DNA from: Gammaproteobacteria bacterium
GTDB lineage: Bacteria; Pseudomonadota; Gammaproteobacteria; Pseudomonadales; Pseudohongiellaceae
Assembly (NCBI GenBank): GCA_947458495.1
Contig: CANHAR010000002.1
Span: 1-34,980 of the forward strand
Direction: 5' to 3'
Length of the DNA stretch: 34,980 bases
Positions within the stretch are counted from its first letter, which is position 1; each line of letters begins with the position of its first letter. Below, piece after piece: positions 3,530 through 33,250 of the stretch. The translations under genes were made by a program, and so were the position numbers. The notes below the pieces were generated by a model that made no database searches, was not told the DNA's origin, and was given only the letters and a program-made list of their open reading frames with translations.

Positions 3530-4183
3530 TTAGACACAGAGGCTGGCGCGCAGATCTTTCAACCGGTTCTGCCGCTCCTCATACGTGAGCGGGCGCGACG
3601 GGTTTTCAGGCAAGGCCTGCACCATCGGCACCTCCAGCTGTTCGCCACGCATCACGCGCTCACACAACTGTTTGTAGTAGTACGAAAACAGCGGGAACAC
3701 TTTGTCTTCCGGCTCTGTCGCCAGCAGGTACCAGTCGGCAGCTTTGCCGGCAAAATACACTGCCGGGTGACTCCAGGTATGCAGATGTTTGGGCGCGGGT
3801 GCACGACAGGCTTCGGTGTAGGCTTCCCACTCCGAGGGCAGTCCAAACAAATCAAATGATTGTTCACAGGCGCGGATCATCGTTGAGATGGTCGGCAGAT
3901 AATCCTGACTTTTCACCAGCCGGCGCGCGGCGGTCACCAGCTGCAGCGGATGAAAATCTGACAGGCATTCCAGCCAGTATTTTTTGGCCAGGATCAGCCG
4001 GTCCGGATCGCCGTACGCTTTGTGATACTGGTTGTGATAGGCGAGCTCAAACTCGGCAAACATCTGGTTGATGGCATCAATCAGATCCGGGCCGTTACTC
4101 GGCCCAGCTGCGGTCGGTGAAACGCTTGAATGCGGCTTCAAGGCCTTGCCCGCCTCGTTCAGCAGCGAATTGATCTTTTGCAT
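3530..4183 (-). CDS. phage lambda replication protein P-like protein
   Basis: 217 aa; 'DAINQMFAEFELAYHNQYHKAYGD...LAKKYWLECLSDFHPLQLVTAARRLVKSQDYLPTISTMIRACE' resembles the replication protein P family; next to a DnaT-like gene. Confidence 0.65.
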   Translation of the reverse strand: MQKINSLLNEAGKALKPHSSVSPTAAGPSNGPDLIDAINQMFAEFELAYHNQYHKAYGDPDRLILAKKYWLECLSDFHPLQLVTAARRLVKSQDYLPTISTMIRACEQSFDLFGLPSEWEAYTEACRAPAPKHLHTWSHPAVYFAGKAADWYLLATEPEDKVFPLFSYYYKQLCERVMRGEQLEVPMVQALPENPSRPLTYEERQNRLKDLRASLCV

Positions 4184-5348
4184 AACGATCCGTTAATCCT
4201 GTTTTGATGGCTTCCGGGCGCCGCGCCCAGCTGTATTTCACAAACTGCAAAAAGCGCGTGTTCCATGATGACTGCGGCTGCCCAGTATCGCGCCAGTAGA
4301 GCACAAACTCGGCGACTTTGCCGCGTGCAAAGGTCTCGTCGATTTCGGCCAGGCGCAGCACTTCAAACACATCCGGGCTGGGCTGCCAGTCTTCGGCAAT
4401 CGGGCGCGGCACACCGTCGTTAACCACCGAGACCTGATAACGCGCCCATTGTCGGCGAATGTGCTCAATAAAGCGGGTATTCCACGCGCCATTCTGAGCG
4501 CCGCGTTCGCGCCAGTAAAGCACAAACTCCGGCACTGCATCGTCGATAAACGCCTCGCTGATGCCGGCATTGTGCAGGATCGACACGGCATCCGCATTGG
4601 GCCGCCAGTCTGCGGACATCGGCGCATCCAACTCGGCCGAGCCACGGCGGGTCTGCTCCATGCGCCACTCGCGCAGCACATGTTTGTAAAACGCATTGCC
4701 CCAGGAGAATCGTGATTGCGCACGATCACGCCAGTACATCACAAAACCCGGCACCAGACTGAGCGCAAACGCATCAGGCACACCGTGCTGCCGACACAAG
4801 GACAACCACTCCTGATCCGGCTGCCAGTCGTTAGAAATATAGGCTGCTGAACCATCGCGCGTGCGCACGCCCGACACCGCCGCGCTGCCATTGTGCGCAC
4901 GTTGGGACATACGTTGTGGCACTCGTTGTGGCACACGCTGAGGTGCTGAATGAGGTGCGGAATGCGGTGCTGAATGAGGTGCTGAATGGGCTGCAGGCTG
5001 TGGCGCCGACTGTAACGCCGGAGCTGGCTCGGACTGCAAGACCGGCCGCTGATTGATCGCAAACAGCCAGCTGTCATCGCGCCCGGTAATCGGATCAATC
5101 AGAATCAGCCCAAGATCCTGCAGACTTTTTTGCACCCGCTTGACATCAATCCACGCCCAGAATGGCAGCGCGTCGAGCAGCGCCTGCTGATCCAACTCCA
5201 GCCAGTTCAGACCCTGGCGCAGCACACCGGCTTTATACATCATCAGCTCGCTGAGCACGTGCAGCAACACGGCCTCTTCCAGACCGATGGTTGCCGCCAG
5301 TGTTGGCGAAATGATTAATGGACGTTCGGGTATCAGTGAGGATTGCAT
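4095..5348 (-). CDS. protein with three tandem DnaT-like ssDNA-binding domains
   Basis: 417 aa; three similar segments: 'DWQPDQEWLSLCRQHGVPDAFALSLVPGFVMYWRDRAQSRFSWGNAFYKHVLREW', 'DWRPNADAVSILHNAGISEAFIDDAVPEFVLYWRERGAQNGAWNTRFIEHIRRQW', 'DWQPSPDVFEVLRLAEIDETFARGKVAEFVLYWRDTGQPQSSWNTRFLQFVKYSW'. Confidence 0.8.
   Translation of the reverse strand: MQSSLIPERPLIISPTLAATIGLEEAVLLHVLSELMMYKAGVLRQGLNWLELDQQALLDALPFWAWIDVKRVQKSLQDLGLILIDPITGRDDSWLFAINQRPVLQSEPAPALQSAPQPAAHSAPHSAPHSAPHSAPQRVPQRVPQRMSQRAHNGSAAVSGVRTRDGSAAYISNDWQPDQEWLSLCRQHGVPDAFALSLVPGFVMYWRDRAQSRFSWGNAFYKHVLREWRMEQTRRGSAELDAPMSADWRPNADAVSILHNAGISEAFIDDAVPEFVLYWRERGAQNGAWNTRFIEHIRRQWARYQVSVVNDGVPRPIAEDWQPSPDVFEVLRLAEIDETFARGKVAEFVLYWRDTGQPQSSWNTRFLQFVKYSWARRPEAIKTGLTDRYAKDQFAAERGGQGLEAAFKRFTDRSWAE
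4909..4996 (-). repeat. 12-bp coding tandem repeat (linker of the DnaT-like protein)
   Basis: Successive 12-bp units such as AGGTGCTGAATG/AGGTGCGGAATG/CGGTGCTGAATG/AGGTGCTGAATG and ACGTTGTGGCAC/TCGTTGTGGCAC; encodes HSAPHSAPHSAPHSAPQRVPQRVPQRMSQRA. Confidence 0.85.
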
Positions 5349-5367
5349 GGCGCGCCTGGGCGTTGGT

Positions 5368-6624
5368 TCAGCGTGATTCTGTTTCTGTGTTCGAGCCCGA
5401 GCTTACCACATCAGACGCTGCCACCGCCCGCTGCCGGGCACTGATCAGGATCAAAAATCCGGCAAATACAAACGCTGCGCTAGAGACCACCGGCGACAAC
5501 AGCCAACCGTCAAACCACCACGGCAGCAGCGCACACAGCCCCCAGAATACTGCGCTGTGCATCACCGCATCGCGCCGGCCTTCCAGTATCCGGCCGTTCA
5601 GCCAAAGACCCGCGCCCAGCGGAATAAAATGCACCAGCGCCTGGGTAAAGTTATCCACCGGCACCCACAACAGAAACGCCATCATGACCAATACCAGCAA
5701 CACATGCACCGTCAGCACGGCCGCTGACAAGGCTGCTGGTATTGACGGGTTAAACTTCTGCTGAGTCTGCGGCAGACAACGCGGCAGCGGATAACGCTCA
5801 TTGACATCCGCTGGCCGCCAGCCGGTAGGCATAAACCACAAGCGCACTTTGTCCCACCAGCGCTCGGCGTGCCAACTGTCCTGCAGCAATTGCCAGTGCA
5901 CCTGCGCATTGGCAAAAAACGGGTTCCAGCTGTGCAGCGCCTTTCGCACTCCGTAAGCACAGGGCTCTTCTGCCAGTTCCGCCTGATAGGTACCAAACAG
6001 CCGGTCCCACAGAATAAACACCCCTCCATAATTGCGGTCGATGTACGGATCATTGATGGCGTGATGCACTCGGTGGTTCATCGGCGTCACAAACACCAGC
6101 TCCATCCAGCCCAAGGTGCCGATCAGACGTGTGTGCACCCAATACTGATAAAGCAGATTCAGCGAACCCACGGTGGCAATGACTTCTGGCGGGAAACCCA
6201 TAAACAGCAGCGGCAGGTAAAACACCGATCCGACGATAAAACTATTAAAGGGCTGACGCAGTGCGGTGGTGAGGTTGTACTCCTCACTTTGATGGTGCAC
6301 CACATGAATGCCCCATAACACATTGATGCTGTGTTGGGCGCGGTGACTCCAGTAATAACAGGCGTCGTACAACACAAAAGCCACCACCCACAACAGCGGC
6401 GTCATGGTCAATTCACCATGCGGCAACACCGTCCACAGTGTTGTGTAGCCCAGGAAACTCACCAGGCGCGTAGCAAATCCCGTGGTCATGCTGATCATGC
6501 CGGTGCTCAGCGACGCCACTGCATCGTTGAGCCGGTAAACGCCCGCCTTGCGGTAATGGTTGACCACCAGCTCCACTAAAATCAGCAAAATAAACATCGG
6601 TATGGCTAAAAGAATCAGGTTCAT
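5368..6624 (-). CDS. sterol desaturase / fatty acid hydroxylase family membrane protein
   Basis: Histidine motifs 'YYWSHRAQHSINVLWGIHVVHHQSEEYN' and 'MNHRVHHAIN'; multiple TM segments; start taken at MNLILLAIP (ORF opens at 6648). Confidence 0.9.
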   Translation of the reverse strand: MNLILLAIPMFILLILVELVVNHYRKAGVYRLNDAVASLSTGMISMTTGFATRLVSFLGYTTLWTVLPHGELTMTPLLWVVAFVLYDACYYWSHRAQHSINVLWGIHVVHHQSEEYNLTTALRQPFNSFIVGSVFYLPLLFMGFPPEVIATVGSLNLLYQYWVHTRLIGTLGWMELVFVTPMNHRVHHAINDPYIDRNYGGVFILWDRLFGTYQAELAEEPCAYGVRKALHSWNPFFANAQVHWQLLQDSWHAERWWDKVRLWFMPTGWRPADVNERYPLPRCLPQTQQKFNPSIPAALSAAVLTVHVLLVLVMMAFLLWVPVDNFTQALVHFIPLGAGLWLNGRILEGRRDAVMHSAVFWGLCALLPWWFDGWLLSPVVSSAAFVFAGFLILISARQRAVAASDVVSSGSNTETESR

Positions 6625-13570: not shown

Positions 13571-14269
13571 ATGATCGAGATCAAAATTGAATCTTTTGAG
13601 AGCTATCACCGAGAGGTCGTCCTTAAGTTCTCACTTGGCGCCCTATATCGTGGCGTGACGAACAAGAACCATGAGTTGATTCCATCCGTTGGAAGGTATT
13701 TGCCTGATTATCAGAAGAATGGAAGAGACAAATCCAAGTTGTTGAACCATGAGCGATTCGCATTGGAGATATTCGAGAAGGATTCGGCAGGTTTTCTCCC
13801 TAGTAAAGTTTCTGATCCGTGGGAGCTTATAGTCCTCGCTCAGCATCATGGGCTACCAACAAGGCTGCTGGACTGGACGCATAATCCGCTCGTTGCGCTC
13901 TTCTTTGCAGTGCAGTCGAATGATGACACCGATGCAGCGGTATATGCCTTGGAGGCAGGAGTTGTTCTGGATGTTATGGATACTGGAGAGCTTGGAAAGC
14001 ATCCCTTGGAACTCCAAGAAACACGGCAGTTAGTTCCGAACAGTTCTTCTCCTCGGATCTCTGCTCAGTCGAGCGTGTTCACTGTCCATGCTCAACCCAC
14101 AGATCCATGGACAGCTTCCGGGATGAAGAAGCTCACCATCCCTAAGGAGCAGAAGATGCAACTGAGGGCTGTTCTCTACAAATACGGCGTATCCTCAAAA
14201 AAGCTATTCCCCGGGCTGGATGGCATAGGGCGTACAGTTCGCTATCTGAAATTTGGAGGCCAAGCTTGA
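13571..14269 (+). CDS. FRG domain-containing protein
   Basis: 'ALYRGVTNKNHELIPSVGRYLP...HERFALEIFEKDSAGFL...WELIVLAQHHGLPTRLLDWTHNPLVALFFAV' matches the FRG domain pattern. Confidence 0.9.
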   Translation: MIEIKIESFESYHREVVLKFSLGALYRGVTNKNHELIPSVGRYLPDYQKNGRDKSKLLNHERFALEIFEKDSAGFLPSKVSDPWELIVLAQHHGLPTRLLDWTHNPLVALFFAVQSNDDTDAAVYALEAGVVLDVMDTGELGKHPLELQETRQLVPNSSSPRISAQSSVFTVHAQPTDPWTASGMKKLTIPKEQKMQLRAVLYKYGVSSKKLFPGLDGIGRTVRYLKFGGQA

Positions 14270-18215: not shown

Positions 18216-19153
18216 ATGCCCAAAGGGAAAACATCGCAATCTCTGCAAATCCGCAACAGCACTGCTGAATTCTTGATCTTCACGGCTCAGGCTGGTGAAG
18301 GCAGCATTGAGGTACGGGTGGAGGATGAAACCGTCTGGTTGACTCAGAAGCTGATGGCGGAGTTGTTTGGTGTCGACGTCAGAACCGTCAGCGAGCACCT
18401 GCAAAACATACTTAAAAACAACGAACTGGAAGAGGATTCAGTTATCCGGAAATTCCGGACAACTGCCGCCGATGGCAAACAATACAACACCCAGTTCTAC
18501 AACCTCGACGCCATTATCTCAGTAGGCTACCGCGTCAATTCCACCCGTGCTACCCAATTCCGCCAATGGGCGACCGGCATCCTGCGCGAGTTTGCCATCA
18601 AGGGTTTTGTGCTGGACCGGAAGCGATTGGAAAATGGCAGTTTTCTGGGCGAGGATTATTTTGAACGCCTGCTGGAAGAAATTCGCGAGATTCGCCTAAG
18701 CGAACGCAGGTTTTACCAGAAGATTGCCGATATTTATGCAACCAGCATGGATTACAGAAAAGATGCTGAACTGACCCAGCAGTTTTTTGCCAAAGTCCAA
18801 AACAAACTGCACTACGCCATTCACGGCAGCACGGCAGCGGAGTTGGTGATGGCGAGGGCCGATGCTGACAAAGAACACATGGGGCTGACCAGCTGGGAAA
18901 AAGCACCTGACGGGAAAGCATGGCCTTGCGAAAAATGCCAATGACCATGGAAGATTGGGCGACAAAACTTGATGCGTTTTTGCAATTTAATGAGCAGGAT
19001 ATTCTGGATGCCTCAGGCAAGGTCACCGCAGAGGTCGCCAAGGCATTTGCGCTGACAGAATTTGAAAAATACAGGATTGTGCAGGATCGTTTGTTCAGAT
19101 CGGACTTTGACAAAATGCTGGAAAGTCTGCCGACACTAGACCCCGAAAAATAA
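18216..19153 (+). pseudogene. RhuM family (virulence RhuM) protein with internal out-of-frame deletion
   Basis: 18216-18944 encodes the RhuM N-terminal part (EVRVEDETVWLTQKLMAELFGVDVRTVSEHLQNI...MGLTSWEKAPDGKA) then runs out of frame; 18920-19153 encodes the C-terminal part (MALRKMPMTMEDWATKLDAFLQFNEQDILDASGKVTAEVAKAFALTEFEKYRIVQDRL). The expected intervening segment is missing. Confidence 0.75.
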
Positions 19154-24018: not shown

Positions 24019-24438
24019 TCAGAAACGGTTCCGCCCCCAACGCAGGTATTCACCGGCAGTCATGGCAATGTTGGGAAAAGTCTGAATTAATTTTTGATCG
24101 CTGGTAATCAGTTTCAAGCTCAGTGATGTCGCCAAGGACACAAACTCACAGTCACATGCTGAGCAACCAGACTGTTGAGCCAACCTTAAAACATCCATTG
24201 AGTTGACCGTATATTCATTATCCGCAAGCTGTTGTTCCGCTTGCGCTTGAATCGCGATCGCCGTGCTCAGATCGATGATGCTTTTTCTGACATACATCGC
24301 CAATACGTTACGCAATTCGCTTCGCCAGAGTAATGGAGCAATCCACTGTGAATCGATGTGCAGTAATGAAACAACATTGTCGGTTTGATCCGTAGGCAGA
24401 TACAGGTACGCAATGGTATTCGTGTCCGTTACGATCAT
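24019..24438 (-). CDS. PIN domain (VapC-like) toxin
   Basis: 'MIVTDTNTIAYLYLP', 'WIAPLLWRSELRNVLAMY', 'CSACDCEFVSLATSLSLKLITSDQKLIQTFP' PIN acidic residues; paired with the upstream antitoxin. Confidence 0.88.
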   Translation of the reverse strand: MIVTDTNTIAYLYLPTDQTDNVVSLLHIDSQWIAPLLWRSELRNVLAMYVRKSIIDLSTAIAIQAQAEQQLADNEYTVNSMDVLRLAQQSGCSACDCEFVSLATSLSLKLITSDQKLIQTFPNIAMTAGEYLRWGRNRF

Positions 24439-24677
24439 TCTCTTCCCTGATGAATGGCTGCATTGATTTCAGCAGTGTCCAATCGTTCAACGGTGACTCT
24501 GTTACGCAGTGCTTGCGCTTTCTCGGCCAGCTCAACTGCGGAGGCACGCATGGGTTTGAATGTTTTTTCCAAACAATAAATCAGCTCACTGTTCACGCTT
24601 CTGTGGTGAGTGCTAGCCGCTTGTCTAAGTTTCTCGTACAAGTCGTCGGGGATGTTTTTAAACGTGACCGTTGCCAT
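24435..24677 (-). CDS. FitA/Arc-like ribbon-helix-helix antitoxin
   Basis: MATVTFKNIPDDLYEKLRQAASTHHRSVNSELIYCLEKTF; 4-bp overlap with the PIN gene; start at ATG 24677 (track start 24752). Confidence 0.88.
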   Translation of the reverse strand: MATVTFKNIPDDLYEKLRQAASTHHRSVNSELIYCLEKTFKPMRASAVELAEKAQALRNRVTVERLDTAEINAAIHQGRE

Positions 24678-24702
24678 CAGCAAGCCTCCGTTCTTTAACA
24701 GT

Positions 24703-24730
24703 GGTTTCATAATGGTTTCATTATGGTTTC
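24703..24730 (-). promoter_or_regulatory. candidate operator: 11-bp direct repeats upstream of antitoxin
   Basis: GGTTTCATAAT / GGTTTCATTAT / GGTTTC- in tandem with 11-bp period. Confidence 0.5.
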
Positions 24731-24888
24731 CTTGGCGATTGATAGTCAACAACCTATCCGGCTAATACCATAGTTGGGCTTTTAAGCAGTTTCAGAATTT
24801 TTGGTGGGCTGACGCCTCCCGTGAGCAGCGCCGAGAGGTACAAACGGTTTTCCTGTAGCGCTGGCTTAGGGCGTACTAGCAGTCCGCC

Positions 24889-25821
24889 CTACTCACTCAG
24901 CCGCTGAACATTGGCTTGATACGTTTGTTCAGGCAGTGGCAGATAACCGGTGAAGTGCATCCAGCTGCCGATGTTGGAAAACAGATGGCCCAGAAACTGC
25001 GTCGCGGGTGTTGGCTCCGTGCCTTCAACGCCCAAGGCGTCAGATCGCACATACAGAAACAGCGGGCGCGTTAACGGCTGGTAACTGCCATCTAACGCAG
25101 ATTGCAGCGAGGGATACGCGGGGCCATTGCCAGCGTCGAGAGCAACCAGGCGCAGTGTATCCCAGTGACGATGATAGGCGCCCAGACCAAAAAATCCGAA
25201 GGCATTCGGATCGGCGGCTATTTCTGCGGCCAGAAATTCTTCGTCTTCACTGGCAACATAATCCATGCGGCTGCGACGTACTTCGCCGGTTACCTGAGTG
25301 GTGAAATAGTCGTAGGTCCCGGAGTCTTGTCCGCGACCATACAAATTCAAAGGTGCATCTGGCCAAGAGGCATTTACCGACTGCCAGTTGTTAACTTGCC
25401 CCTCAGAAGCAACCGCCCACATCTGTTCAAGCTCATCCAGCGTCAGGCTGCTTAACCATTCATTGCGCGGATGAGTCACCAGCGCGATGGCATCGGTGCC
25501 CAGATCAAAGCGTTGATACGGCACATTGTTGCCCACACAAATCGCAACCTCCTCGGCGTTGATCTCGCGAGAAGCGGCGCTGATCTGTATCTCTCCGTCA
25601 CAAAAGCGCCTGAAGCCGCCGGTTGTTCCCGAAAAATTCACGGCTACCTGAGTTTCGGGATTTGCAGTGGCATACAAACGCGCTGCTTGCACCATGATCG
25701 GGTAAACCGTGCTGGAGCCATCCACAATAATGTCAGCCCGACTCTCATCGACTGATTCAAATTCAGGGGAGCAGGCCATCACAGCAGAGGTCGCGCAGAT
25801 TAGCAGTAGTCTTGACTTCAT
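24889..25821 (-). CDS. PstS-family phosphate-binding lipoprotein
   Basis: Lipoprotein signal (MKSRLLLICATSAVMAC); 'IIVDGSSTVYPIMVQAARLYA...VAVNFSGTTGGFRRFCDGEIQISAASREI', 'LYGRGQDSGTYDYFTTQVTGE'. Confidence 0.93.
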   Translation of the reverse strand: MKSRLLLICATSAVMACSPEFESVDESRADIIVDGSSTVYPIMVQAARLYATANPETQVAVNFSGTTGGFRRFCDGEIQISAASREINAEEVAICVGNNVPYQRFDLGTDAIALVTHPRNEWLSSLTLDELEQMWAVASEGQVNNWQSVNASWPDAPLNLYGRGQDSGTYDYFTTQVTGEVRRSRMDYVASEDEEFLAAEIAADPNAFGFFGLGAYHRHWDTLRLVALDAGNGPAYPSLQSALDGSYQPLTRPLFLYVRSDALGVEGTEPTPATQFLGHLFSNIGSWMHFTGYLPLPEQTYQANVQRLSE

Positions 25822-26120: not shown

Positions 26121-27296
26121 TCAGAACAGCCTGCTGATGGCAATCAGCAGTAATGGAATTACAAAAAACACGCCGGCAATATAGGCAACAACGTACCACT
26201 TGCTGCGCATCGCAAGGGTGGCCAGTGTTTCAGCCATTTTAATGGGAACGTTTCGGGTGAACGGAATACCGTAAAGAATGGCGATAGCAAACACGTTAAA
26301 AAACAGATGGACCAGTGCAATCGCCAACGCTGTATCAGCCATCGGACCAGTGATAGCCGTGACCGCGAGTAATGCGGTGATGGTGGTACCAATGTTGGAA
26401 CCCAGCACAAACGGATAAATCTGTTGAATAGTGAACACCCCGGAGCCTGCCAATGGCACGATCAGCGACGTCGTAGTTGATGACGACTGCACCAGCATTG
26501 TGATTGCGGTACCGGAGACCATTCCCGCTATTGGCCCCCTGCCGACCGCAGCATGCATGATGTCTCTGGCTTTACCGACCAGTAATTTCCTCAGGATTTG
26601 TCCCATGCTGGATATCACCAGCAGAATCATGACTACGCCAATAACAATCATCGCAATGCCGGCAAAAATGCCCGGCAGCCAGGACGTGATCAACTCCAGC
26701 ACCTGCGACGCTGGTGATAACAGCGTACCCATAAAGTTTACATCACTCATACTCAGACTGGCTTCGGAGTACAGCATTTCAGCCAGTGCGGTCGCCACGC
26801 GTTCCAGCGGTCTGAACAGAATTTCCAGGGGCAGCAGAATGGCCACCGCACATAAATTGAAACTGTCATGCACGGTAGCGGCTGCAAAAGCCCTGCGAAA
26901 TTCCTCACCGTTGCGCACATGCCCGAGACTCACCAGAGTGCTGGTCAGCGAGGTACCGATATTGGCGCCCATCACCATGGGGATTGCTATACCCAGTGGC
27001 AAGCCACCGGCAACCAGGCCAACGATGATAGAAGTCACGGTACTTGAGCTTTGTATGACCGCCGTAACAACCAAACCAATCACCAGCGCAATGATTGGAT
27101 TGGAGGCAAAGGCAAACAGCTCCCGGGCATTGTCACCGGCTGCCAATTTAAATCCATCACCAATACCGGCAACGGCGGCCAATAACAGATAGACCAGCGC
27201 CAGTACCAAGAGCCATGACAGCCAGTTATTGCGATTATCGGCGGCTCCGCCGGGCTGTTCGTGATTAACTGTTGATGTTTTGTTGCTTGTGGACAC
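26121..27296 (-). CDS. Na/Pi cotransporter family protein
   Basis: 'GLVVTAVIQSSSTVTSIIVGLVAGGLPL' and 'GTAITMLVQSSSTTTSLIVPLAGSG' QSSS repeats and 'MGANIGTSLTSTLVSLGH'; GTG 27296 (GGGA upstream) preferred over track start 27335. Confidence 0.93.
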   Translation of the reverse strand: MSTSNKTSTVNHEQPGGAADNRNNWLSWLLVLALVYLLLAAVAGIGDGFKLAAGDNARELFAFASNPIIALVIGLVVTAVIQSSSTVTSIIVGLVAGGLPLGIAIPMVMGANIGTSLTSTLVSLGHVRNGEEFRRAFAAATVHDSFNLCAVAILLPLEILFRPLERVATALAEMLYSEASLSMSDVNFMGTLLSPASQVLELITSWLPGIFAGIAMIVIGVVMILLVISSMGQILRKLLVGKARDIMHAAVGRGPIAGMVSGTAITMLVQSSSTTTSLIVPLAGSGVFTIQQIYPFVLGSNIGTTITALLAVTAITGPMADTALAIALVHLFFNVFAIAILYGIPFTRNVPIKMAETLATLAMRSKWYVVAYIAGVFFVIPLLLIAISRLF

Positions 27297-27347
27297 AAGA
27301 AATCCCTTTGGCTTGTTATTTGGATAAACACACAATTACTGAAAAAT

Positions 27348-27365
27348 GTGACAAGCTGATGAAAG
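27348..27365 (-). promoter_or_regulatory. candidate single Pho box upstream of Na/Pi cotransporter operon
   Basis: Minus strand CTTTCAT-CAGC-TTGTCAC compared with CTGTCAT-N4-CTGTCAY; two mismatches over 14 half-site positions. Confidence 0.45.
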
Positions 27366-27461: not shown

Positions 27462-27878
27462 ATGACCAAACCTGTCGCAAAGCCCACCGGCAACCCATGG
27501 ATTCGCACACTGATAATCGTGGCCTTTACGGTGCTGATCGGCGCTGTTTTATGGCTGTTGTTGCCAAAAGGTTCGTTCTCCAACGATCTGACCCGCGTGG
27601 GCCAAGGCCAGCCGGCACTGGTGATGCTGCGCGAAGTGCATGTGATGGGCGGGGATCTGGTCATGGAACAGATGCTGCACATCCAAGCTGAATTTCAGGA
27701 CTCGGTAGAGTTTCTGGTGGTACACACCGGACATCCGGATGGACAGGCGTTTGCGGCAGAGCACAATATCAGCGATGGCTCGCTGGTGTTGTTTGATGCG
27801 CAGGGGCAAGTGCTGGGTCGCAGCGCGCGCCCGGAGTCTGCGGACGCGCTGCGGCAGTTCATTACAGAGCTTCTGTAA
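27462..27878 (+). CDS. membrane-anchored hypothetical protein, possibly thioredoxin-like
   Basis: One N-terminal TM then 'QPALVMLREVHVMGGDLVMEQMLHIQAEFQDSVEFLVVHTGHPDGQAFAAEHNISDGSLVLFDAQGQVLGRSARP', thioredoxin-fold-like pattern. Confidence 0.65.
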   Translation: MTKPVAKPTGNPWIRTLIIVAFTVLIGAVLWLLLPKGSFSNDLTRVGQGQPALVMLREVHVMGGDLVMEQMLHIQAEFQDSVEFLVVHTGHPDGQAFAAEHNISDGSLVLFDAQGQVLGRSARPESADALRQFITELL

Positions 27879-27956: not shown

Positions 27957-30755
27957 TCAGAAGTTTACGCGGGCACCGAGGAAGTACAGTGACCCAAACT
28001 TCTCGTACTCGTAGGTACGCTGACGATCGCCGTAGTAGCGCGCACCGGGTGTGTCGCTGAGGTTTTTGCCTTCGAAGAACACTTCATAGGTGTCGTTGAT
28101 GGCATAACTGGCGGTCAGATCCAGCTGTGAACGGCCCTCCCAATACAGATCCAGGCGGCCGTCATTGGCATTGATCTCATTCAGATAATCGCTGCGATCG
28201 GTATACGACAGACGCACGCTCAGGCCATCTGCTTCATAAAACGCTGACAGATTGTAGGTGTGCTCAGACTGGCCTGGCAGATCAAAACGGCTGCGACCAC
28301 TGTAAGAGCGGCCCAGATTCATGTGTGCATCGGTGTAGGTGTAGTTAGCAAACACACCAAAGTCTGACCAGAATCCCGGCAACATGGTCAGTTGCTGCTG
28401 CCAGCTGACTTCTGCGCCAAAAATGCGGCCATCCGGTGCATTTTCCGGACGTGTGATCAGTGCATTGTCGCCCTCAAATGTGCCGCTCAGCGTCAGCTCG
28501 TAGCGGTAATCCGCCAGATCCTTATAGAACACACCACCAGAAATCAGACCCAGCGGCTCGATGTAGTACTCAAGCATAAAGTCGACGTTGTTGGTCAGTG
28601 TCGGGTTCAGATCCGGGTTACCGGCCGCCACACGCACGATGGCGGACGAATCGTTTTCCACCAATCGCGGTACGATTTGCGGGAAGTTAGGCCGTGAAAT
28701 GGAGCGGGTAATCGCCGCACGACCAATCAGGTTTTCACTGAAGCTGTAACGCAGTGTGGCACCGGGGAAGAAGTTCGTGTAGCTGTTGCCCGCCGTGCGT
28801 TTGCCAATGGCACTGGTCACTTCGTTAAACGAGGGTGAACTGGAATTCTGTTCGGTGCGTTCCATACGCAGACCCAGCAGCAACTCCGCGCGATCATACT
28901 CAACGCGAGCAGAACCGTAGGCTGATGAGATGTCTTCATCCACACTGTAGTCTGAAGTGATGGACTGCGGGATACGACGCTGGGTGATGGAACTGGCCTT
29001 GATACCATCAAGATAGGCGGTGACCAGTACCGGGTCCATTTTGACGCCGAGGTTATAACCGTAGTTGATCGATGGCTCATCGGTCAGGAATGTCAGCAGG
29101 GGCTGCGTCGGCGCTGATGTGGTACGACGATCCCGGTAACGCTCTTCGTCATGGGTCTTTTCACGACCACGGAATTTGATGCCCCACTGATAGGTTGTGG
29201 GCTGACTGAACAGCATGCCGGGCATCTCGACGTTAGCTTGCGCACTGACTTCGTCTTCAACACCGCTGTTAGAACGGAAGGTGTTTTCGCGGAAGCTCAT
29301 GCTACTCACACGCGTCAATTCGCCGGTGGCAAACACGGAGTACGCGGGGTTATTGGCATCCTGCGAAAAATCATAACTGACGTTTGGACGCAGGCTGGAG
29401 CGCAGCAGCAACTCATCACGATTCGGATAGGTTTGTTTGGCGCTTGATACTGATGCAGAGTAATCCAGCGTGTAATTGCTCAACTCATTCTCGCCGCCAA
29501 ATGTCACTGACGAAATGGTGTTCTGCTGCACGCGGTGGCGGAAGTGCTTCTGTAAACGCACCGTGTTAACGGTGCCGCTCAGATTGGTGGCGCCAGGCTG
29601 CAAAGTGCCCTCTTCCCACAGAATATCCGCACGGTTGCGGAACTCGTCATCGGTAAACTGTGCCCACGAGCCACGCAGGTAATAACTGTCGGTATCCGTT
29701 GGACGCCATTCCAGTGACGTGGTCGCCGCCATACGCTCACGACGGGTATCGTAGTCCTTGAACAGCGTTTCGATCAGGCTCAGTACCTCACCCTGCGGGC
29801 GATTGAGCACGGTCCAGACGTTCTCAACGTTATCCACCTGACGGCGTGTCTTGGAATAACTCAGTGACACCAGTGCGCCAAACTGCTGCTCGCTGCCAAA
29901 CAGATTGCTGGCCTGCAAGGAGCCACGTGTGTCGCTTTTGCCGTATTCGTTGTCGCTGATACCGGCAGAGCCACCCAACTGCGGGCCACGGGTATCAAAC
30001 GGTGAGCGCGTGACAATGTTGACCGCGCCAGCAATGGAATCGGCATCCTGATCAGGCCGCAGGGTTTTGGAGACTTCAATCTGGCTGACGATGTCGGACG
30101 GGATGGTGTCGAGGTCAACCGCGCGTGTAAAGGGATCCGGCGCGGGCATGCTCACGCCATTAATCGCCACCGCTGAGAATTCTGCCGGGGCACCACGCAC
30201 GTTGATGTAACGTCCCTCACCCTGGTCACGCTGAATGCCCACACCGGGCGCGCGCTGCAAGGCTTCTGCAATGTTGGAATCCGGAAACCGGCCAATCGCG
30301 TCGGATGAAATCACGTTGCTGACGTTGTCGGCCATACGCTGCTGGTTCAGAGCACGTGCCTGACTGTCCACAATCGGCGACGCACGCACAATGATCTCTT
30401 CAATGACACCGGCGGGCAGCAGTGCCTGGGAAATGTTGGCACGCTGGCCGTCAGCCACGGTAATGCTCTGTGTGGTTGACTCATAACCCAGATAGTCGAT
30501 GACCACGGTATAAGTGCCTGCAGGCAGGCTGCCCAGCGTGAATTCGCCCTGCGTGTTGGTCACGCCACGAACGTTCAGTTCCTGAATAGTGATCTGTGCG
30601 CCCGGCAATGCAGAGCCGGAGCGATCTTCAATACGGCCGGCAACAACGCCGGTTTGTGCAAAGGCTTCAGCTGCAAACATCAAGGCAATGGCAGGCACGG
30701 CGGTGCGTATCATCACCGGTAGAATTTTTTTGCGGAATCTTGATAGCGAAGACAT
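27957..30755 (-). CDS. TonB-dependent receptor with N-terminal carboxypeptidase-regulatory-like domain
   Basis: 932 aa; signal peptide, 'VVAGRIEDRSGSALPGAQITIQELNVRGVTNTQGEFTLGSLPAGTYTVVIDYLGYE', plug 'RMADNVSNVISSDAIGRFPDSNIAEALQRAPGVGIQRDQGEGRYINVRGAPAEFSAVAINGV', C-terminal 'YFLGARVNF'. Confidence 0.96.
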   Translation of the reverse strand: MSSLSRFRKKILPVMIRTAVPAIALMFAAEAFAQTGVVAGRIEDRSGSALPGAQITIQELNVRGVTNTQGEFTLGSLPAGTYTVVIDYLGYESTTQSITVADGQRANISQALLPAGVIEEIIVRASPIVDSQARALNQQRMADNVSNVISSDAIGRFPDSNIAEALQRAPGVGIQRDQGEGRYINVRGAPAEFSAVAINGVSMPAPDPFTRAVDLDTIPSDIVSQIEVSKTLRPDQDADSIAGAVNIVTRSPFDTRGPQLGGSAGISDNEYGKSDTRGSLQASNLFGSEQQFGALVSLSYSKTRRQVDNVENVWTVLNRPQGEVLSLIETLFKDYDTRRERMAATTSLEWRPTDTDSYYLRGSWAQFTDDEFRNRADILWEEGTLQPGATNLSGTVNTVRLQKHFRHRVQQNTISSVTFGGENELSNYTLDYSASVSSAKQTYPNRDELLLRSSLRPNVSYDFSQDANNPAYSVFATGELTRVSSMSFRENTFRSNSGVEDEVSAQANVEMPGMLFSQPTTYQWGIKFRGREKTHDEERYRDRRTTSAPTQPLLTFLTDEPSINYGYNLGVKMDPVLVTAYLDGIKASSITQRRIPQSITSDYSVDEDISSAYGSARVEYDRAELLLGLRMERTEQNSSSPSFNEVTSAIGKRTAGNSYTNFFPGATLRYSFSENLIGRAAITRSISRPNFPQIVPRLVENDSSAIVRVAAGNPDLNPTLTNNVDFMLEYYIEPLGLISGGVFYKDLADYRYELTLSGTFEGDNALITRPENAPDGRIFGAEVSWQQQLTMLPGFWSDFGVFANYTYTDAHMNLGRSYSGRSRFDLPGQSEHTYNLSAFYEADGLSVRLSYTDRSDYLNEINANDGRLDLYWEGRSQLDLTASYAINDTYEVFFEGKNLSDTPGARYYGDRQRTYEYEKFGSLYFLGARVNF

Positions 30756-30830
30756 TCATCGGCTCCAGGGCTTATATCGTGGGTTTGGGGTCGGTTTGAG
30801 ATACCCTGCCGGCGAGTCTATGAAGTTTGT

Positions 30831-30870
30831 TTGACAGCTATGTGAAGGAAAGATGACAGTTGTGTGACAG
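30831..30870 (-). promoter_or_regulatory. tandem Pho boxes (four half-sites) upstream of TonB-dependent receptor
   Basis: Minus strand CTGTCAC-ACAA-CTGTCAT-CTTT-CCTTCAC-ATAG-CTGTCAA: four 7-mers in exact 11-bp register, 76-115 bp upstream of the start codon. Confidence 0.75.
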
Positions 30871-30958
30871 TATGACCAATCTGTCACAAATGCCCGGATG
30901 ACGAGATGATTGTGTCTTGGTTACACTGCCTGCTTTCATCCCCGATCAGGAATCCACG

Positions 30959-31570
30959 ATGTACGTACCGCAGCATTTCAGCGAAAGCGACACCAGCAAA
31001 CTGCAGCAAACCATCCGCGACTACGGATTGGGCCTGCTGATTGTGGCCGACAACGCCGGCATTGAGGCCAACCATGTGCCTTTTCATCTGTGTTGTGATC
31101 AAGGAAATGAGCTAGGCACCTTGCAGTGCCACGTGGCGCGCAGCAATCCGGTGTGGCAACGTCTGCAGGCGGGAGCCTCTGCTCTGGTGGTCTTTCAGGG
31201 ACCGGACGCCTATGTATCGCCGTCGTGGTATCCAAGCAAAGCTGAAAACGGTCGCGCGGTACCCACCTGGAACTATCTGGCGGTGCATGCAGAAGGCAGC
31301 GTGCGGGTCATTGAGGATGCCGGCTGGCTGAAACAACACGTGCGCAATCTGACGAATCAACATGAATCCGGCAGGCTAAACCCGTGGTCGGTTGATGATG
31401 CGCCAACAGACTACACAGAGCGGATGTTACAGGCCGTAGTGGGCCTTGAGATCAGCATTCAGAAACTCACCGGCAAACTCAAGGCCAGTCAGAATCAACC
31501 GGAGCGCAACAAAGTCGGGGTGATCGCCGGACTGAGTGCGGAGCATCCGATGGCTAAACTGATTAGCTGA
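30959..31570 (+). CDS. PaiB-like FMN-binding negative transcriptional regulator family protein
   Basis: 'MYVPQHFSESDTSKLQQTIRDYGLGLLIV...ANHVPFHL...LGTLQCHVARSNPVWQRL...FQGPDAYVSPSWYPSKAENGRAVPTWNYLAVHAEG...VGLEISIQKLTGKLKASQNQPERNKVGVIAGL'. Confidence 0.95.
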   Translation: MYVPQHFSESDTSKLQQTIRDYGLGLLIVADNAGIEANHVPFHLCCDQGNELGTLQCHVARSNPVWQRLQAGASALVVFQGPDAYVSPSWYPSKAENGRAVPTWNYLAVHAEGSVRVIEDAGWLKQHVRNLTNQHESGRLNPWSVDDAPTDYTERMLQAVVGLEISIQKLTGKLKASQNQPERNKVGVIAGLSAEHPMAKLIS

Positions 31571-32624: not shown

Positions 32625-32855
32625 ATGGGCCAGGTCACGATTTATCTAGACGACGACATTGAGCGCAAAATGAATGATGCAGTCAAATCTGCTCAGATAT
32701 CCAAAAGTAAATGGATAGCGCAACTCGTTCAGGAAAAAGTGGCCAATCATTGGCCTGACTCCATTGCTGAGATGGCCGGCAGCTGGGATGACTTTCCTTC
32801 ATTGGCAGAAATCAGGCACGCCCAAGCCTCTGATACTGAAAGAGAATCACTTTGA
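32625..32855 (+). CDS. ribbon-helix-helix type antitoxin
   Basis: 'MGQVTIYLDDDIERKMNDAVKSAQISKSKWIAQLVQEKV'; AAGGAGGAG ribosome-binding site; abuts PIN toxin. Confidence 0.88.
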   Translation: MGQVTIYLDDDIERKMNDAVKSAQISKSKWIAQLVQEKVANHWPDSIAEMAGSWDDFPSLAEIRHAQASDTERESL

Positions 32856-33250
32856 TGTATGTGCTTGACACTAATATCCTAATTTACTTCTTCAAAGGCA
32901 TGGGTAATGTCTCAAAGAAGCTGTTGTCGGTTTCACCCAAGGATATTGGTATTCCTGCTATCGTCATTTACGAACTGGAATACGGCATTCACAAATCCAG
33001 CTTCCCGGAAAAGCGTCAACAGCAGCTAACTGAATTATGCTCCCTCGTAAACGTACTACCTTTTGGCGGCGCAGAGGCCAGATTGACTGCCGACATCCGG
33101 GCAAAACTTGAGAAAAGTGCCACACCCATTGGGCCCTATGATCTGCTTATTGCCGGCACGGCTATGTCAAACAATGCTGTGCTGATTACTAACAACACCA
33201 AAGAGTTTTCCAGAGTTCCCAACTTACTGATTGAGAACTGGTTTGATTAA
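32855..33250 (+). CDS. vapC: VapC-like PIN domain toxin
   Basis: 'MYVLDTNILIYFFKG', 'IPAIVIYELEYGI', 'ATPIGPYDLLIAGTAMSNNAVLITNNTKEFSRVPNLLIENW'; ATG overlaps the antitoxin TGA. Confidence 0.93.
   Translation: MYVLDTNILIYFFKGMGNVSKKLLSVSPKDIGIPAIVIYELEYGIHKSSFPEKRQQQLTELCSLVNVLPFGGAEARLTADIRAKLEKSATPIGPYDLLIAGTAMSNNAVLITNNTKEFSRVPNLLIENWFD

Follow-up and report, generated by a model that had tools for sequence, protein, structure and literature searches.

Which signal switches on a TonB-dependent receptor known by its class name alone, and what does this receptor import? An answer would attach to it a regulator, a stress signal and a substrate class that can be put to the test, and would help in predicting the uptake of organic phosphorus from genomic and metagenomic data, in which TonB receptors are common and mostly lack an assigned ligand. 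The receptor lies in a window of 34,980 nucleotides, the whole stretch of DNA analyzed here. A sequence-only reading of this window had proposed four PhoB half-sites in perfect 11-bp register, 76 to 115 bp upstream of the receptor gene, and had linked the receptor to phosphate (Pi) stress. The four half-sites are present exactly as quoted, from 30870 to 30831 on the minus strand, but that description missed a fifth half-site, a second Pho box, a Na/Pi symporter gene and a PstS-like gene. The features of the locus are as follows.

30831-30870, minus strand: tandem Pho box of four half-sites in 11-bp register (sequence, PhoB matrix, shuffles, conservation in five orthologues)
30820-30826, minus strand: fifth in-register half-site, ACTTCAT (sequence and promoter alignment; CTTCAT in orthologues)
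30815-30820, minus strand: possible -10 element, TAGACT (predicted from sequence and promoter alignment)
27957-30755, minus strand: TonB-dependent receptor of 932 aa, with signal, CarboxypepD_reg domain, plug and beta-barrel (Pfam, NCBIfam TIGR01782)
30917-31570, plus strand: divergent FMN-binding protein (PF04299, PaiB-like; Pfam), sharing the intergenic region with the receptor
27462-27878, plus strand: small membrane-anchored protein between receptor and symporter, with no family match in Pfam or NCBIfam
27348-27365, minus strand: second Pho box, CTTTCAT CAGC TTGTCAC, upstream of the Na/Pi symporter (match of at least 13/14; genus-trained matrix; alignment)
26121-27335, minus strand: Na/Pi symporter (PF02690; Pfam E = 1.7e-35; NCBIfam NF037997 above cut-off)
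24889-25821, minus strand: PstS-family phosphate-binding protein with lipobox VMAC (PBP_like_2; TIGR02136)

The receptor promoter

Read on the minus strand, the box is CTGTCAC-ACAA-CTGTCAT-CTTT-CCTTCAC-ATAG-CTGTCAA. Its half-sites start at 30870, 30859, 30848 and 30837, in steps of exactly 11 bp; the third, CCTTCAC, is weak (5/7 match to YTGTCAY), while the other three are good. This arrangement recalls the E. coli pstS promoter (CTGTCAT AAAA CTGTCAT ATTC CTTACAT ATAA CTGTCAC), with which it has in common the four halves, the 11-bp register, the weak third half and a position just upstream of the gene. The fifth half-site is an element of the Pseudohongiella promoter, unlike E. coli pstS, and the product differs as well: the E. 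coli promoter drives a periplasmic binding protein, the Pseudohongiella box an outer-membrane receptor. The last base of the box lies 75 bp ahead of the ATG at 30755, in agreement with the distance first given, and both orientation and spacing suit activation. The -10 element, and with it the transcription start site, may lie at TAGACT, which begins 11 nt past the last TGTCA and reads TAAACT or TAAAAT in the promoter alignment of the orthologues.

How often would such an array arise by chance? The four halves together score 25/28; of 300 dinucleotide shuffles none got that far, the highest reaching 22. A scan with a PhoB matrix, which the sequence-only reading had set beforehand as a check, gave a clear match: with a matrix made from 47 motif instances of E. 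coli PhoB ChIP-seq (PMC10294691), the receptor box is the top site in the window, at 21.75 bits (p = 6.6e-9), and E. coli phoA falls below it at 20.0 bits. The corresponding E-value is 4.6e-4 per window, or 0.036 over 2.74 Mb. Three more sites that overlap in the same register reach 15.1, 14.9 and 12.7 bits, the last of these being formed by the fourth and fifth half-sites together. We also trained a small matrix on other sites of this genus, leaving out the receptor and symporter boxes; within the window it gives the receptor box the highest score and the symporter box the next. These two boxes are also the only sites of the window matching at least 13/14, and both are upstream of genes of the locus. 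At the genome level, where our figures come from pattern searches and the analytical E-value, the 2.7-Mb genome has a single CTGTCAYN4CTGTCAY and three matches to the looser YTGTCAYN4YTGTCAY.

Conservation of the box upstream of orthologues was another check set beforehand, and it holds for the orthologues of the genus: the receptor has five close orthologues (87-97% identity), and the promoter alignment retains an in-register array in all five. Its most conserved part is the proximal TTCA-N5/6-TGTCAA-N5-CTTCATA, and the distal half-sites vary. In one relative, G028, the divergent neighbour is an AbgT transporter instead of the FMN-binding gene and the box is still present, which argues that the box goes with the receptor.

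Phosphate carriers and the PhoB regulon

The Pho box of the symporter is conserved in the five promoters aligned. Orthologue lengths indicate that the true start of the symporter is probably a GTG near 27296. Of the five orthologous loci, four (G032, G025, G029 and G028) keep the receptor and symporter together; for G023 no symporter was found. The PstS-like gene comes after the symporter in G029 and G028, and the G032 contig stops at that point. The PstS-like protein scores 198.9 bits with TIGR02136, slightly below the cut-off of 206.6. We found no Pho box at 13/14 upstream of its gene, which may therefore share the symporter transcript. The gene for the small membrane-anchored protein is not at the corresponding place in G028. 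With a PhoB box at the receptor and a second box at a phosphate carrier, this is very probably a phosphate-scavenging locus.

Other genes of the window are of a different kind. A FitA-like ribbon-helix-helix antitoxin and a PIN-domain toxin form a pair directly behind the PstS-like gene (24019-24752, minus strand), and another PIN protein is encoded at 32852-33250 (plus strand). Mobile- or defence-type genes are scattered through the window, encoding a phage-lambda-P-like replication protein (3530-4183, minus strand), an FRG-domain protein (13571-14269, plus strand) and a RhuM-family protein (18216-18944, plus strand).

Does the genome encode a regulator for these boxes? It has its own PhoB (TIGR02154, 329 bits, above cut-off), and a search of seven genomes found PhoB in every one. 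If no more than one mismatch is allowed, Pho boxes in this genome lie upstream of pstS, of the genes for a PhoD phosphatase and another TonB receptor, and of the type II secretion secretin gene; in relatives they precede pstS, ppk and the gene for an NptA-type Na/Pi transporter. Genome-wide, 24 one-mismatch boxes compare with 11 for a reversed-pattern control; this excess is only about twofold, so that single weak sites elsewhere should not be over-read. Many PhoB sites of E. coli are transcriptionally inert, mostly intragenic ones (PMC10294691).

Several members of this set deserve a description of their own. The PhoD-like phosphatase gene has the Pho box CTGTCACTAATTTGTCGT 18 bp ahead of its called start (L192:1501-1518; contig C4:30618-30635), and the same box lies upstream of the homologous gene in G024, G025 and G028. 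The genome also has a PhoX gene, near which no Pho box at 12/14 was found. The other TonB-dependent receptor has the Pho-like box CTGTCCTGAAACTGTCAT about 65 bp upstream (L202; contig C92:3868-3885), with a further in-register half-site upstream of it, and G028 encodes a second TonB-receptor paralogue of 1001 aa (L075:5435-8440) with a multi-half Pho-like array upstream at 5319-5369. The secretin gene, gspD, is preceded at about 57 bp by six half-sites in 11-bp register (L208:826-887, on contig C232 of this genome), CTGTCAC CGAT CTGTAAT ATCC CGGTCAC ATCA CTGTCAC ATGC GAGTCAT ACCA TTGTCAT; matches to this type of array occur in relatives at G025:C13:297277-297316 and G023:C123:3560-3599. This suggests that the type II secretion system may be under PhoB control, as reported for Caulobacter.

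The receptor family and its substrate

The 932-aa open reading frame had been named a TonB-dependent receptor, and the TIGR01782 model leaves this assignment firmly in place (E = 5e-177; 590.9 bits against a cut-off of 310); Pfam finds both the plug and the barrel domain, as befits a member of the TIGR01782 subfamily. The predicted structure is a confident TonB-transporter fold (pLDDT 85), and its comparison with the PDB returned generic TonB transporters only, with no hint of a ligand. Conserved Arg and Lys residues of the barrel were considered as a sign of an anionic ligand and set aside, many of them looking generic to the TIGR01782 family.

We sampled 80 homologues of the receptor from several phyla. 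For GC-rich loci, neighbours were sought by tblastn, since longest-ORF gene calling hid them. A phosphatase-family gene lies at most 600 bp away in 49 of the 80, a gene-level count for receptor homologues only, and BLAST fragments place one within 1.2 kb in 51 of the 80 loci. Searched up to 7 kb on each side, 56 of 68 gene-level phosphatase hits fall within 600 bp. Beta-propeller phytase is the commonest neighbour, followed by purple acid phosphatase, type I phosphodiesterase and histidine phosphatase; Sphingomonas homologues with about 51-52% identity, on plasmid records, have an annotated phytase beside the receptor. Many of these homologues have a Pho box as well: a match of at least 12/14 occurs within 350 bp upstream of 34 of the 80 homologues, compared with 12 of 505 other genes in the same loci and with 1 of the 80 for the reversed pattern. 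Fisher's test gives p = 4e-23 with relatedness ignored, a figure to be read as a strong tendency only. A TonB-receptor subfamily of several phyla thus travels with phosphatases, and many of its proteobacterial members have Pho boxes. Two of the metagenome-assembled records, titled Rhodoferax (CALQJO020000043.1) and Klebsiella pneumoniae (CAMDWI010000031.1), hold homologues at 97% and 54% respectively; both have probably been labelled with the wrong organism.

A maximum-likelihood tree groups the Pseudohongiella receptors on a single branch within a mostly alphaproteobacterial clade of phytase- or phosphatase-linked receptors. This placement makes organic phosphate the most economical ligand, and the substrate is most likely a phosphate ester such as an inositol phosphate. 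The broad range of phosphorus sources first envisaged is in this way narrowed by the phosphatase neighbours of the homologues; its phytate option, in contrast, loses ground, and phytate as the only substrate is weakened by the lack of both phytase families tested, PF02333 and PF00328, in this genome (assembly 85% complete). These families are also absent in G032, G025, G029 and G023; in G028 there is a phytase at a different locus, with a Pho-like box upstream. As no phosphatase gene was found beside the receptor in this genome, and neither tested phytase within it, we infer ester import from the relatives; the products of the PhoX and PhoD genes could hydrolyse the esters. In G024, a 173-aa open reading frame directly behind a divergent receptor homologue (L069:8230-8751) gives a partial phytase match (PF02333 positions 203-325), and is possibly a phytase remnant or a diverged phytase.

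How new is this assignment? The link between receptor and Pi stress is supported, but it is less novel than the sequence-only reading implied. In Caulobacter crescentus, TonB receptors under PhoB control were proposed to import alternative phosphate donors (PMC11208175); the likeness is one of described regulons, not receptor-by-receptor, and the Caulobacter regulon includes a phytase, whereas our genome has none of the tested families. Flavobacterium johnsoniae has TonB-dependent transporters (TBDTs) induced at low Pi, such as Fjoh_1368 beside a phytase (PMC8115612). Likened by description, this TBDT and our receptor both have a plug and a CarbopepD_reg domain, but F. johnsoniae belongs to the Bacteroidota and has the phytase as partner, where the partners here are a Na/Pi symporter and a PstS-like protein. 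Phytase-adjacent TBDTs are also known from marine bacteria, as in Citromicrobium (PMC3400609), and those of Sphingomonas, Shewanella and Cellvibrio are homologous to our receptor (30-53% identity among those fetched). The tree groups our receptor with phytase- or phosphatase-adjacent ones; there is no phytase at or near its own locus, nor PF02333 anywhere in the assembly. The SusCD-like Pus complexes of Bacteroidota are TonB-dependent, induced by Pi depletion and placed with phosphatases (PMC8115612); they differ from our receptor, which scores 39.7 bits with the SusC model TIGR04056 (cut-off 368) and has no SusD gene among its annotated neighbours. PhoB-controlled importers of this type are therefore already known in other bacteria, and it is the gene pairing that is unusual: in a limited literature search we met no other receptor, Na/Pi symporter and PstS-like gene arranged under two boxes, and found nothing useful on Pseudohongiella and phosphate.

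Mechanism and alternatives

The predicted induction of the receptor by Pi stress is well supported by the box statistics, by conservation and by the Pho boxes and phosphatase neighbours of the homologues. Taking the locus as a whole, we consider it likely that the box acts as a pstS-type promoter activated by PhoB, and that it serves a low-Pi-induced receptor importing phosphate esters, with Pi carriers next door. When phosphate is low, phosphorylated PhoB would bind the tandem 11-bp half-sites and recruit RNA polymerase to the weak -10 element TAGACT, switching on the receptor; the adjacent symporter would be switched on through its own Pho box, the gene for the PstS-like lipoprotein being next to it. 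The receptor would then bind inositol phosphates or other phosphomonoesters and bring them into the periplasm with TonB energy. Phosphatases encoded elsewhere, PhoD (with its own Pho box) and PhoX, may release Pi, to be captured by the PstS-like protein and the symporter.

Could the receptor import Pi itself, a Pi complex or polyphosphate under the same regulation? The pairing with Pi carriers, kept for the symporter at least in four of five orthologous loci, leaves room for this less likely reading, as do the lack of an adjacent phosphatase and of PF02333 and PF00328 phytases in the genome. Pseudohongiella would then possess a dedicated phosphate route from the outer membrane to the cytoplasm: the TonB receptor would take up Pi, polyphosphate or a Pi complex, and a Na/Pi symporter and a solitary PstS-like lipoprotein would complete the route, under two Pho boxes and with no phosphatase next door. 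If true, phosphate itself would be taken up with TonB energy, and such a transport activity would be new. However, porins are the usual way for Pi across the outer membrane, the receptor sits within a clade whose members adjoin phytases and phosphatases, and PhoX and PhoD can supply Pi from esters. We regard such a route as unlikely.

Less probable still is that Pho control is real and the ligand a metal complex, for instance iron-phosphate or iron-phytate, meeting a need for iron or another micronutrient that rises under Pi stress. Phytate chelates iron (PMC3400609), and the PDB fold neighbours of the receptor model are mostly siderophore and haem receptors. This match is generic, however, at 13-16% identity, and a metal ligand agrees poorly with homologues that adjoin phosphatases and with downstream genes that handle phosphate.

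It is most improbable that the repeats are a chance match, or that the box serves the divergent FMN-binding gene alone: in spite of the 11 control hits against 24 real ones and the shared divergent intergenic region, we rejected the former on the shuffle scores, which four to five in-register halves surpass, and the latter on the box tracking the receptor in G028, where the divergent neighbour is a different one, and on an orientation and -10 spacing that fit the receptor.
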